This document shows, piece by piece, positions 8,519 through 12,004 of a stretch of DNA of 32,190 nucleotides; the stretch's first letter is position 1, and every line of letters begins with the position of its first letter. The notes under the pieces are model-generated. The model saw only the letters and a list, made by a program, of their open reading frames with translations, was not told where the DNA came from and did not search any database. Source of the DNA: a virus; the IMG/VR virus record IMGVR_UViG_3300034060_001083, positions 1-32,190 of that record. One strand, given 5' to 3'. The position numbers and the translations under genes are program-made.

Positions 8519-8749
8519 TTACTTATTAATTGTCAATGTATGTTTGTTTCCATTAGATAAAACAATTGTAATATCTTCAGAACAAGCATTCATGAACTGT
8601 TCAAATGTTACCATACTTATTTTTCCTTTTGAAAGTATAGTTGAAACATTAGCTTCTGATTTTCCAGATGCTTCTGCTAAATCTTTAATGCTCATTCCTT
8701 TTTGAGCTATCAAAGTTTTAAAAAATTCTTTTATTGTTAATTTTTCCAT
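8519..8749 (-). CDS. XRE-family helix-turn-helix regulator
   Basis: The 76-residue protein is a Cro/CI-type HTH domain: KTLIAQKGMSIKDLAEASGK (11-30) forms helices 1-2, and SEANVSTILSKGKISMVTFE the recognition helix and following helix. It has no C-terminal oligomerisation or protease domain, so it resembles Cro or a small early repressor. It has its own TATATTTG box (8764-8771) and leads into the recombination module, so it likely controls that transcript. Confidence 0.85.
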   Translation of the reverse strand: MEKLTIKEFFKTLIAQKGMSIKDLAEASGKSEANVSTILSKGKISMVTFEQFMNACSEDITIVLSNGNKHTLTINK

Positions 8750-8763
8750 TTCCTTTTTTTTTA

Positions 8764-8771
8764 CAAATATA
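8764..8771 (-). promoter_or_regulatory. Promoter -7 box TATATTTG for the XRE/recombination operon
   Basis: A minus-strand TATATTTG lies 15 nt upstream of the XRE ATG at 8749, in an A/T-only stretch. The -33 element is indistinct. A short leader is typical for this promoter class. Confidence 0.55.
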
Positions 8772-8785
8772 ACTATTTATTTTAA

Positions 8786-8917
8786 TTAATTAAACATTCT
8801 TTTATAATTTTTTAATTTTTCTTTTAAATTGTTGATTATAAAGTCTGAATTTATTTTTGGTTCAATACATTTCGCAATTACTGATCCTGGTTTTAATCCT
8901 TTACACTTACATTTCAT
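8786..8917 (-). CDS. Possible 43-residue Cys/Lys-rich protein
   Basis: ATG 8917-8915 to TAA 8788-8786 encodes MKCKCKGLKPGSVIAKCIEP and then a lysine-rich helix (NNLKEKLKNYKR). Three cysteines lie in the first 17 residues. The frame also stays open upstream through the array boundary (reading QLADRRNTLRKYIQQLIHKR). It could therefore be the tail of a gene once longer and interrupted by the cassette array, or simply chance. It is just upstream of the XRE promoter. Confidence 0.45.
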   Translation of the reverse strand: MKCKCKGLKPGSVIAKCIEPKINSDFIINNLKEKLKNYKRMFN

Positions 8918-8968
8918 TCGCTTATGTATTAATTGTTGTATGTATTTGCGTAACGTGTTTCGCCTATC

Positions 8969-8983
8969 AGCTAGTTGGGCGCA
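8969..8983 (-). other. Array boundary: AAC box of last cassette, degenerate attC
   Basis: TGCGCCCAAC on the minus strand (8983-8974) is the exact reverse complement of GTTGGGCGCA (9262-9253), the box before cassette gene A. It lies 10 nt after gene A's stop, as in the other cassettes. The following 5 nt (TAGCT) and the next 50 nt do not form the long stem seen in the other sites, so this attC appears degraded, or the array ends here by junction with phage DNA. Confidence 0.6.
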
Positions 8984-8993
8984 ATTGGACGAA

Positions 8994-9227
8994 CTACACC
9001 TTTGAAGCTACACGTTCACAATGTTTGCATTTTCCTAATTCTAAAACTTCATCTTTGTAATTCTTTACCAATTCGTTGAATGATAATTTCTCATCTTCGT
9101 AAATAGATATACGTCCACAAAGCGAAATATTACCATTCATTTTATCATCAATATATCCGTGTGGTTTTAACATTCTATTTTCATCATTTGCAGAAGCGAT
9201 AGAAATCCAAATTATTTTTTCTGACAT
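8994..9227 (-). CDS. Cassette A protein, Cys-containing hypothetical
   Basis: The start is ATG 9227 (MSEKIIWISIAS), because upstream in-frame codons run through the attC palindrome. The 77-residue protein has C37 in SLCGRI and a C-terminal CKHC (67-70), which could form a Zn site. The middle, DDKMNGNISLCGRISIYEDE, reads like a small phage or plasmid zinc-ribbon protein. The ATG is 25 nt after the GTT box and the stop 10 nt before the AAC box, so the ORF fills the cassette. The function is unknown; it may be a cargo gene unrelated to phage growth. Confidence 0.75.
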   Translation of the reverse strand: MSEKIIWISIASANDENRMLKPHGYIDDKMNGNISLCGRISIYEDEKLSFNELVKNYKDEVLELGKCKHCERVASKV

Positions 9228-9252
9228 ATTATTAAATTTAAAATTAAAAAAC

Positions 9253-9335
9253 TGCGCCCAACAGCAACTAGCCAATAAGGGCAAATGAGTATCTTTTGTT
9301 AGCCCTCATCGGCTAGTTGCAAAACGTTAGCACCA
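9253..9335 (-). other. attC-like site A (follows cassette B)
   Basis: Minus strand: R'' TGGTGCTAAC (9335-9326), spacer GTTTT, left arm 9320-9302, 19-nt loop, right arm 9282-9264, spacer T, R' GTTGGGCGCA (9262-9253). The 19-bp arms pair fully except for two G.T wobbles at arm positions 11 and 14. R'' does not pair with R', as expected when R' belongs to the next cassette. Confidence 0.75.
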
Positions 9336-9346
9336 ATTAAATGATG

Positions 9347-9625
9347 CTAATACTTAACATATCCTTTACCATAACAAGAACGACATTGAACTGTACAAGT
9401 TCCACTTGAAATCCAATTACCTGATGTTTGATTATAAAATCCATTATCAACAATACCATTTCCTTTACAAACAGGACAAAGTTGTACATTTGATAAGTTC
9501 ATTAATCTTATGTTGGATTTATTATCTATATATTTTACAATATCATCTATACAGTTATCAATATCTATTTCACTAAAGTTTGATTGATTATTTCTAAATA
9601 TTTGTTCTATATCTTTTTTTATCAT
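9347..9625 (-). CDS. Cassette B protein with DnaJ-type zinc finger
   Basis: The 92-residue protein has an N-terminal helical half (1-45) and a C-terminal pair of CxxCxGxG motifs, C50-PVC-KGNG and C81-RSC-YGKG, as in the cysteine-rich domain of DnaJ. Two motifs make one Zn centre. Small stand-alone proteins of this type occur in phages and plasmids and may bind unfolded proteins or RNA. The ATG is 25 nt after the GTT box and the TAG 11 nt before the AAC box. There is no J domain. Confidence 0.8.
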   Translation of the reverse strand: MIKKDIEQIFRNNQSNFSEIDIDNCIDDIVKYIDNKSNIRLMNLSNVQLCPVCKGNGIVDNGFYNQTSGNWISSGTCTVQCRSCYGKGYVKY

Positions 9626-9650
9626 AATACTTAAATTTTAAATTAAAAAC

Positions 9651-9734
9651 TGGTGCTAACAGCAATTAACCACTACAAGCCGAACGTACATACTGCTTAG
9701 GCTTGCATCGGTTAGTTGCAAAACGTTATAGGCA
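9651..9734 (-). other. attC-like site B (follows cassette C)
   Basis: Minus strand: R'' TGCCTATAAC (9734-9725), spacer GTTTT, arm 9719-9700 and arm 9681-9662 (20 nt, 16 Watson-Crick matches), spacer T, R' GTTAGCACCA (9660-9651). The wobble/mismatch cluster falls at the same arm positions (11-14) as in site A. The outermost arm bases GCAA...TTGC are shared with site A. Confidence 0.75.
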
Positions 9735-9740
9735 ATTATT

Positions 9741-10025
9741 CTATTTAGAAATAAAATCACTTTGTTTCAATTCTTTATCTTTCCAAAATGTATTTCTTAA
9801 AGTGTGATTTTCAATACTTCCAAACCAATAGCCTTTTAGTTGTAATTTTTCAAAAAGCTTTTCATTTATAGAATGTCCTTTTTCATCTTCTAATGAATTT
9901 ATAATTGTTATTTTACAACTGTAATCTCCTTTTTTACACGCTTTTTTAATTTCTAAAACTGCATTTTTATACAATATTTTAACCCTTGCTTTTAAGGTCT
10001 TTTCTAATGCTTTAGTTGCTTTCAT
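9741..10025 (-). CDS. Cassette C hypothetical protein
   Basis: The start is ATG 10025 (MKATKALEKTLKARVKI); the longer open frame runs into the attC box and is not used. The 94-residue basic protein begins with an amphipathic helix, has KKGDYSCKITI in the middle, and ends in FWKDKELKQSDFISK. No family is recognised. The ATG is 25 nt after the GTT box and the stop 6 nt before the AAC box. High Lys content with no membrane segment suggests a cytoplasmic protein. Confidence 0.75.
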   Translation of the reverse strand: MKATKALEKTLKARVKILYKNAVLEIKKACKKGDYSCKITIINSLEDEKGHSINEKLFEKLQLKGYWFGSIENHTLRNTFWKDKELKQSDFISK

Positions 10026-10050
10026 ATTTATTTTTTTTACAACCCATAAC

Positions 10051-10190
10051 TGCCTATAACAAGTGTTTGGCAAAAAAGAGGGTTCGGTTATTAATTTAAT
10101 TTTTGTTTTGTACTTTTAATTTTTAGGCTTAATCGAAGTTTTAGGCTTGTTTATTCACTTCTTCGCCAAGCACTCGAACGTTAGTAGGCA
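10051..10190 (-). other. attC-like site C (follows cassette D), long loop
   Basis: Minus strand: R'' TGCCTACTAAC (10190-10180), spacer GTTCG, arm 10174-10158, a loop of about 79 nt, arm 10078-10062, spacer T, R' GTTATAGGCA (10060-10051). The 17-nt arms differ at positions 5, 11 and 14, positions 11 and 14 again as in site A. The arm sequence is unrelated to sites A and B, so structure rather than sequence is conserved. The large variable loop recalls long attC sites. Confidence 0.72.
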
Positions 10191-10191
10191 T

Positions 10192-10419
10192 TTAAAACGG
10201 AGAATCAATCTCTGTCCAAAAATTTACATTATGAACTTCATAATCATCTTCATTATAAAAATCGCAAAAATATGAACCATCAATTGTACCCTCATACATT
10301 TCTGCGACATGATACTTGCCACTATGAGTAGACACTAATACTTTCCCACTCTTTAAACCATCCCAACAACCGCTTTCAGTTGCTATTGGTTTTTTAACTT
10401 CTAATTTATACCAAATCAT
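10192..10419 (-). CDS. Cassette D protein, DUF551-like
   Basis: The 75-residue protein has the layout of DUF551 phage proteins: MIWYKLEVKKP at the start, then GKVLVSTHSGKYHVAEMYEG, an aromatic stretch (YFCDFYNEDDYEVH) and a C-terminal VNFWTEIDSPF corresponding to the family's VTHWMPLPEPP ending. The function of DUF551 is unknown. The ATG is about 34 nt after the GTT box; the TAA is 1 nt from the AAC box. A phage-type gene as cargo suggests that cassettes are captured from, or move between, phages. Confidence 0.75.
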   Translation of the reverse strand: MIWYKLEVKKPIATESGCWDGLKSGKVLVSTHSGKYHVAEMYEGTIDGSYFCDFYNEDDYEVHNVNFWTEIDSPF

Positions 10420-10430
10420 ATTTTTAAATT

Positions 10431-10628
10431 TTAATTTACTGTGTGAATAAAACGCCTACTAACAACAGATATACAAAACGGCTTGACATATACTGTGTTT
10501 AGAGCCGTTTCGCATAGCTGTAAAACGTTATGGTAAAGTGGCTGATTTGAGTTATCTGCGAGGTAATCAATACACCAACAGCTTATCTTATCTAAATAGT
10601 TCCTAGAAACTAAAGCCACCATTCCCAT
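10431..10628 (-). pseudogene. Cassette E: minimal cassette, ORF reads into the attC
   Basis: The unit is only 168 bp (10463-10630). An ATG inside the GTT box (GTTATGGG, 10628-10626) opens a frame of 65 codons, of which only about the first 32 lie in the cassette body; the rest runs through site D and stops in the leader of cassette D. It has no recognisable domain (MGMVALVSRNYLDKI...). It is best read as an ORF-less or truncated cassette, although translated read-through into attC does occur in integrons. Confidence 0.4.
10454..10533 (-). other. attC-like site D (follows cassette E)
   Basis: Minus strand: R'' CCATAAC (10533-10527), spacer GTTTT, arm 10521-10504, 21-nt loop, arm 10482-10465, spacer T, R' GTTAGTAGGC (10463-10454). 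The 18-nt arms differ at three positions (5, 9, 11). The 5-nt and 1-nt spacers are the same as in sites A-C. Confidence 0.72.
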
Positions 10629-10653
10629 AACAGCAAATATAAGCAATAAGGGC
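10624..10653 (-). other. Half attC-like site at the upstream end of the array
   Basis: Minus strand: GCCCTTATTGCTTATATTTGC (10653-10633), spacer T, then GTTATGGG (10631-10624). The first ten bases (GCCCTTATTG) equal the right arm of site A. The matching left arm is missing; the 50 nt before it (10654-10707) contain only a GGTAG/CTACC pair. It may be a degraded attC, possibly of the gene at 10713-10949, or an attI-like entry point. Confidence 0.5.
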
Positions 10654-10712
10654 AGGTAGTAGAAAAGCAGTCATTAACTTTCGTTTGTACACAACGCTAC
10701 CTATTTTAAAGC

Positions 10713-10949
10713 TCACTGCCTCGCTCCCTTACTACTCAATTTTTCAACTTCATTATAAAGCTCATCCCAATATTTACGATGTGTTGAATTTAATCTATCC
10801 CAACCTTTATAATCTTCATCTAATGCACAAGTTTGAATGATCTCATCAATACATATTAAAGCACACTTAACAGCTCTTATTTCTCCTTCACTAGTGTTGT
10901 CCATTCTGAATTGTTCCACCAGTTCTTTTGCTTTGATTTCGATTTTCAT
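10713..10949 (-). CDS. Small hypothetical phage protein (KYWDELYxEV type)
   Basis: The 78-residue helical protein begins MKIEIKAKELVEQFRMDN, has a cysteine-containing central helix (AVKCALICIDEIIQTC), and ends in HRKYWDELYNEVEKL. It resembles the protein at 3141-3329 in layout. It borders the cassette array; the 81 nt between its stop and the first GTT box hold a half attC-like site. It could have been the first cassette, or the resident gene next to which cassettes accumulated. Confidence 0.75.
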   Translation of the reverse strand: MKIEIKAKELVEQFRMDNTSEGEIRAVKCALICIDEIIQTCALDEDYKGWDRLNSTHRKYWDELYNEVEKLSSKGARQ

Positions 10950-11493: not shown

Positions 11494-11738
11494 TATACTG
11501 AAAATTTAGATCGTAAATTACTTAATGATTGAACAGCAATTTCCTTCTGTTCTTTTTTGATTTGTTCAAGTTCTGATTCTGAAATAATTTCTTCATCTAA
11601 ATCTGAAATGAAATTATAAGCTAACAACCTTCCATCTTGTGGCGAAGCAATTAAGAATCTTTCTGTAATTGGATTGAATCCTGCAACAACACCTTCGATC
11701 CAGTATTGTTTGTTCATTGATATTTTAACTCTTTTCAT
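11493..11738 (-). CDS. Small beta-rich hypothetical protein
   Basis: The start is ATG 11738 (MKRVKISMNKQYWIEG); an in-frame TTG at 11756 overlaps the promoter -7 box and is rejected. The 81-residue protein has a beta-type N-terminal half (YWIEGVVAGFNPITERFLIA, then GRLLAYNFISDL) and a Glu/Lys helix at the C-terminus. It resembles small SH3-like barrels but no family is certain. It leads the chain of coupled small genes running down to the cassette array. Confidence 0.7.
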   Translation of the reverse strand: MKRVKISMNKQYWIEGVVAGFNPITERFLIASPQDGRLLAYNFISDLDEEIISESELEQIKKEQKEIAVQSLSNLRSKFSV

Positions 11739-11753
11739 ATTTGTTTTTTTTTT

Positions 11754-11761
11754 CAAATATA
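11754..11761 (-). promoter_or_regulatory. Promoter -7 box TATATTTG
   Basis: A minus-strand TATATTTG lies 16 nt before the ATG at 11738 in an A/T-rich gap. It would drive the small early genes and possibly the cassette array, which has no obvious promoter of its own. Confidence 0.5.
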
Positions 11762-11800
11762 AACATTTATTTTAATATAAAAACTATTTATTAAAAATAA

Positions 11801-12004
11801 TTAAATATTTTTTATTTTTTCGTAAAATAATATCAATCTATTGTAATAAGGAATGAAGCGTTTGTTTCCAGAATTTGCCTTCAGAATAGTTAAATGAGAA
11901 TCAATAAACTTTTGGCAATCTATAATATTTAAGTCGCTTTTAATTTTGATTGATTTAGGTATTTCAATCTTTTTAAGTTCCATTTCTAATTGATCCAATC
12001 TCAT
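11801..12004 (-). CDS. Small phage protein (DUF6965-like)
   Basis: The 67-residue protein has the pattern KFIDSHLTILKANSGNKRFIPYYNRLI, which resembles a family of short Bacteroidetes phage proteins (FLDSHxxxLxxN...PYYxRL; I associate it with DUF6965, from memory). The function is unknown. Its ATG directly follows the T tract of a hairpin terminator with no spacing. Expression thus depends on read-through or on hairpin refolding, an attenuation-like arrangement behind promoter 12094-12124. Confidence 0.7.
   Translation of the reverse strand: MRLDQLEMELKKIEIPKSIKIKSDLNIIDCQKFIDSHLTILKANSGNKRFIPYYNRLILFYEKIKNI

Follow-up and report, generated by a model that had tools for sequence, protein, structure and literature searches.

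We analyzed a window of 32,190 bases that corresponds to a complete IMG/VR record; the record is linear, so it may represent a fragment. The window encodes phage head and tail proteins, including a portal protein (PHROG 5e-80), and the host of this phage is probably a member of the Bacteroidota. On the minus strand, between positions 8948 and 10736, lies a series of small genes enclosed by GTT and AAC boxes and separated by hairpins, with an attI-like motif at one end of the series and an unrelated element at the other (Table 1).

Table 1. Features of the cassette array and of its two edges in the window.
Feature	Coordinates	Strand	Remarks
attI-like array end	8948..8973	-	TAGCTGATAGGCGAAACACGTTACGC follows the terminal AAC
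Unit A	8974..9262	-	boxes GTTGGGCGCA (9262-9253) and TGCGCCCAAC (8983-8974); pairing 10/10
Gene A	8994-9227	-	77 aa
attC-like hairpin between B and A	9254..9334	-	65.0 bits, E 3.4e-14
Unit B	9326..9660	-	box pairing 10/10
Gene B	9347-9625	-	92 aa; CxxC zinc-ribbon-like
attC-like hairpin between C and B	9652..9733	-	66.7 bits, E 1.3e-14
Unit C	9725..10060	-	box pairing 10/10
Gene C	9741-10025	-	94 aa
Long attC-like hairpin between D and C	10052..10188	-	both AAC/GTT boxes, paired arms; below covariance model threshold
Unit D	10180..10463	-	box pairing 10/10
Gene D	10192-10419	-	75 aa
attC-like hairpin between E and D	10455..10535	-	59.5 bits, E 8.3e-13
Remnant unit E	10527..10632	-	boxes pair 7/10; no ATG-to-stop frame of its own
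Left edge of variable region, unrelated element	10633..10736	-	10645-10736 is 91% identical to L005 7388-7477

Comparison of genes A to D with Pfam and PHROGs gave no confident family, and a search of the viral contigs yielded no homologue of gene A. Gene B has a homologue in viral contig L001, located outside any cassette, and gene D has homologues in L156 (75% identical) and in L157 (58%), where it is an ordinary gene. Since homologues of B and D occur outside cassettes in other viral contigs, the phage cassette pool seems to draw on phage genes. The AT-rich leaders between GTT box and start codon are alike in A, B and D (TTTAATTTTAAATTTAATA-ATG; 9228-9250, 9626-9650 and 10420-10440), and are perhaps a cassette-borne promoter or ribosome site. 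At the left edge, the 92-nt element at 10645-10736, which precedes an unrelated ORF in L005, alters the C-terminus of the upstream gene (10713-10949) as compared with the relatives of the window. An earlier note on this DNA had taken this element for a partial attC; it has no clear attC form and is a different element. Elsewhere in the window, the stretches 1807-1885, 8748-8842 and 11722-11818 show cross-matches of 75-79% with related places in the relative G003, and are possibly a repeated promoter or operator element.

In each of units A to D (8974-10463), the GTT box ahead of the gene and the AAC box behind it are exact reverse complements over 10 nt. Across the whole window only five GTT 10-mers have an exact reverse complement 200-430 nt downstream, four of them being those of units A to D, compared with an average of 0.57 in order-1 Markov sequences. 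The four pairs of units A to D were found exactly where the earlier note had reported them, and the boxes of the remnant unit E pair at 7/10. The same note had counted four complete palindromes, of which three match our covariance model; the fourth (10052-10188) scores below its threshold but has the boxes and paired arms, and in other contigs long hairpins (95-137 nt) that end in the same way are frequent. Viral contigs L078 and L087 match the region of the hairpin at 10455-10535 with 98% identity. The covariance model (R1) was built here from 39 sites, and the three matching hairpins of the window are among its training sequences, so that independent support comes from the sites found elsewhere, namely about 200 sites across 100 viral loci. 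A pattern derived from the hairpins of the window matched 106 stretches of viral contigs, against just 10 in 84,980 prokaryote genomes, and nearly all of these 10 bear a Bacteroidota title. A pattern search for a GTGTATA hairpin type gave no match. The array DNA itself had no match among 50,697 phage records, and an Rfam search returned nothing relevant.

The hairpins show strong covariation, with 92.9% of cells paired as opposed to 76.8% after shuffling and at most 49% when slid, and the spacers that flank them are unequal (5 and 1 nt). Like the attC sites of integrons, they are imperfect palindromes with AAC/GTT boxes and a variable stem. Among 112 units, the boxes before and after the gene pair over at least five of seven bases beyond the core in 84, compared with about 15% when shuffled, whereas pairing between the boxes of a single in-array site does not exceed chance. 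Pairing within units and not within sites is what is predicted for cassettes that were circularized and reinserted, and supports the proposal of the earlier note that integron-like cassettes with unit-specific boxes, once circular, lie in a phage operon. With three R1 matches and one long site, and with no integrase, the window corresponds to a CALIN (at least two attC sites in the absence of an integrase), as judged by the covariance model made here.

The end of the array at position 8974, which had been read as a second partial attC, is instead an attI-like motif. Array ends of this kind carry TA-NNNNN-TA-NNCGCAA at a fixed distance from AAC; the motif is present in 29 of the 44 array ends that lack a further hairpin (top 2% of TAAC windows, leave-one-out), including that of the window (TAGCTGATAGGCGAAAC, 8948-8973), and the relative G003 has the same terminal motif (TAGCTTATTGGCGAAC). 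Downstream of the last site, a partner AAC was found in 71 of 101 cases compared with 7 expected, often followed by the attI motif. In integrons, attI lies at the array end beside intI; in the class described here, attI with an adjacent recombinase is present in five viral records, in Fluviicola and on one plasmid, while the window has the motif only.

The earlier note had assumed the order gene, then attC, and this orientation is reversed. One gene reading towards attI was found in 66 of the 76 viral paired-box units (the reverse in 6), with a median 3' tail of 14 nt, and the hairpin precedes its gene. Nearly all genes of chromosomal arrays read away from attI, which is the classical direction, and plasmid cassettes are mixed, with erm(F) reading towards attI and OXA-347 and tet(X) away from it.

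Evidence of cassette turnover comes from relatives of the window and from other viral contigs. G002 and G003 share the flanks of the window, mostly at 92-97% identity. At this locus G002 has different genes and no hairpin, G003 has two cassettes, one with a gene that looks MazG-like by eye, and the window has four to five; the array is thus recent relative to its flanks, or was lost in G002. Neither relative shows the genes of the window in a fixed order without the palindromes, an outcome that the earlier note had held to be incompatible with its proposal; both carry other genes. Over 127+909+2122 nt (3.1 kb), the viral contigs L029 and L091 have 100% identity, and they differ in two places. 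One is a complete [hairpin - GTT - methyltransferase-like gene - AAC] unit located exactly between TAAC and attI, and the other is a second cassette inside the array, where the indel falls within a 17-nt shared stretch. DNA methyltransferases are apparently encoded by cassettes of several viral contigs (L091 10777-11411, L153 and L151), which agrees with the methyltransferase cassettes reported from phage CALINs.

Cassettes of the same design were found outside phages. In the Fluviicola genome G098, a chromosomal array that spans about 95 kb and has its own recombinase (4211544-4321440; L185-L190) contains five copies of one cassette, which have the same hairpin on the GTT side and differ in the sequence before the hairpin and after AAC. 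The genome paper of Fluviicola taffensis RW262T (chromosome of 4,633,577 bp) makes no mention of integrons. The resistance genes erm(F), OXA-347 and tet(X) are likewise carried in units that have paired boxes and this type of hairpin (L215 7592-9792, on the Flagellimonas plasmid NZ_CP092416; L219, L216 and L218), with the erm(F) cassette adjoining attI and a recombinase. Matches in other plasmids conserve erm(F) exactly from the AAC-hairpin to AAC (query 33-1325), and the Arenibacter plasmid pSMS7 has AAC, attI and the recombinase (query 1323-2241) without erm(F). Resistance genes of Bacteroidota may move as cassettes of this system. In addition, tet(X5) and estT are separated by a similar hairpin on an Acinetobacter plasmid, and in Myroides ere(D) lies ahead of the erm(F) cassette.

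In the L029/L091 pair, the Fluviicola copies and the erm(F) plasmids, a gene and its attC-like site are thus gained or lost as one unit. The boundaries of these three cases indicate that exchange takes place at AAC (G^TT on the opposite strand) and that each hairpin belongs to the gene downstream of it. GTT as the sole exchange point was ruled out, as arrays open at the junction of AAC and attI, and the hairpins of the Fluviicola and erm(F) cassettes are on the GTT side.

No recombinase of this kind was found in the window, G002 or G003, so the enzyme would have to be supplied in trans, unless the record is incomplete. In five of 52 viral records (G036, G040, G108, G122 and G124), a tyrosine recombinase gene lies directly after attI and has the same direction as the array. 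In each of them the start of this gene is immediately preceded by an AAC boundary, and the tree places the five proteins in one group (94/90). The array-bearing Bacteroidota genomes G098, G069, G084, G014 and G010 encode a related enzyme at the AAC end, pointing towards the array. These array-adjacent recombinases match the IntI profile TIGR02249 but skip about 60 of its positions (about 180-238), and score below the NCBI cut-off for IntI. Residues about 208-242 of IntI4 (PDB 2A3V) have no counterpart in them, and alignment with IntI1 showed that the IntI-specific insert is missing. This additional domain is specific to IntI and has been treated as both defining and necessary (PMC9668308), so that an integron in the usual sense has an IntI with this domain; the enzymes described here do not have it. 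The recombinase class falls outside the IntI family as usually defined. The relatives of these enzymes in the PDB are XerA and IntI4, and the nearest curated family is NF040815 ("site-specific tyrosine recombinase/integron integrase"), which comprises XerA-like recombinases; the genuine Xer proteins of the hosts, however, lie mostly elsewhere in the tree, and the array enzymes adjoin attI and cassettes. IntI1 forms a long branch in this tree, and the lineage was left unplaced relative to it.

Phage arrays have a property that plain exchange at AAC does not predict. On plasmids and in Fluviicola the hairpin stays with its gene, whereas in phages, when one unit occurs in several contigs, its copies are mostly flanked by different hairpins on either side, and in most of 13 comparisons the upstream hairpins resembled each other no more than random pairs did. 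For example, L041 6569-7029 and L101 1764-2224 share 459/459 positions (98.5%) between hairpins that are unrelated on both sides. Identical units with unrelated hairpins on either side were likewise observed in L016 and L073. This decoupling may reflect either exchange on the GTT side as well, using the other folded strand, or a separate replacement of hairpins; the possibility that the two sides of a unit had swapped their hairpins was also considered and rejected, as no matching pair was found.

Such decoupling would fit ordinary phage mosaicism, that is, homologous or annealing recombination at short, conserved stretches of the boundaries, in which the hairpin arms act as linkers for a recombinase of the phage and no site-specific enzyme takes part. 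The arms AACGTTTTGCARCTA and TGCTGTT are common to many sites, and the short stretch shared at the internal L029/L091 indel points in the same direction. Nevertheless, homology between phage unit copies stops flush at AAC even where no hairpin follows, the recombinase lies beside attI in all five viral records that have one, and the plasmid and Fluviicola cassettes are precise to the base. As mosaicism also gives no reason for the complementarity of boxes within units, we regard it as a quite improbable explanation. Dispersed palindromes of the REP or MITE type, independent of gene boundaries, would account for hairpins that recur in many contigs, but are contradicted by the complementary unit-specific boxes around them and by the uniform content of the paired-box units, most of which hold one gene in the same orientation. 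As hairpins were found at gene boundaries in about 100 viral contigs with the architecture of the window, and do not behave as a repeat family, the probability of this explanation is negligible.

It must also be considered that the array is a fossil CALIN, captured in another replicon, copied once into the phage and now inert. Because the window, G002 and G003 have no such recombinase, the array in the window may be inactive, as a fossil would be; unit E is eroded, and for published phage CALINs entry by off-target or illegitimate recombination was thought possible (PMC9892861). On the other hand, the boxes of A to D are perfect, three relatives have 0, 2 and 4-5 cassettes at one locus, and L029 and L091 differ by cassette turnover without any other change, which makes complete inertness since a single transfer unlikely.

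In our view, the locus is very probably an integron-like array of cassettes that has no recombinase of its own. Direct support comes from the boxes, the hairpins, the attI motif, the cassette-sized gains and losses, and the empty and alternative sites in relatives, together with the adjacency of a recombinase in other phages, hosts and plasmids. Cassettes would have the layout [hairpin - GTT box - gene - AAC box], and a tyrosine recombinase acting at the AAC boundary would add or remove single cassettes, with new ones entering at the attI-like site, the array end that the genes face. The enzyme acting on the window would most likely be an IntI-like recombinase without the IntI-specific insert, encoded by the host or a plasmid, by a co-infecting phage, or in a missing part of the record, and it may recognize the hairpin as a folded single strand. 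Since the cassette genes are co-oriented with the phage operon and carry their own AT-rich leaders, they are probably expressed by read-through from this operon, and the phage could benefit from a rapidly exchanged reserve of small accessory genes.

Integrons share with this system the one-gene cassettes, the GTT/AAC hairpin sites, the cassette-specific box pairing, the exchange at G^TT, the location of attI beside the recombinase and the long chromosomal arrays. They differ in that the recombinase here has no IntI-specific insert, the hairpin spacers are unequal, and, in phages, genes face attI and hairpins are not kept with genes. Fluviicola and several other host loci, where the recombinase gene points towards the array, resemble the reverse integrons known from Treponema denticola, but in the phage layout genes, attI and recombinase all have one direction.

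Arrays of attC-like sites without an integrase are already known in phages, including the virulent Polaribacter phage P12002L; a survey found 17 CALINs in 10,705 phage genomes, and IntI1 recombined five of the six phage sites tested (Qi et al., 2023; PMC9892861). The array alone would thus be one more of these, and the novelty that the earlier note claimed for Flavobacteriia phages does not extend to attC clusters as such, Polaribacter being flavobacterial. Model R1 found no site in P12002L, and the present set differs from those CALINs in that it consists of a single Bacteroidota type in about 100 viral contigs, has attI, and includes a recombinase in five cases. The novelty lies in the features of the class: its recombinase lacks the defining domain, attI-recombinase units occur in phages, and gene polarity is reversed. 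A non-exhaustive literature search found no description of an insert-lacking lineage, and neither the insert-less recombinase nor the reversed gene polarity nor the resistance cassettes seem to have been described before. IntegronFinder 2.0 counted one complete integron in Bacteroidetes proper, in Salinibacter (PMC9024848), which suggests that the lineage was missed.

Taken together, we consider it likely that Bacteroidota hold a separate integron lineage whose recombinase never had, or has lost, the insert, and which spans chromosomes, resistance plasmids and many phages, with a phage clade in which genes face attI and hairpins are shuffled independently of genes. Among the known platforms for gene capture in bacteria, integrons are the main one. 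A system this widespread in phages, plasmids and chromosomes should be missed by standard integron searches, because its recombinase has no copy of the part they look for, and the lineage, if true, has gone unseen by tools that require the insert. A natural integron-like system without the extra IntI domain would make the necessity of this domain for folded cassette sites directly testable. In addition, it would explain the movement of erm(F), tet(X) and other resistance genes among Bacteroidota, and would show that phages keep their own pools of small-gene and DNA methyltransferase cassettes, and not merely bacterial ones.
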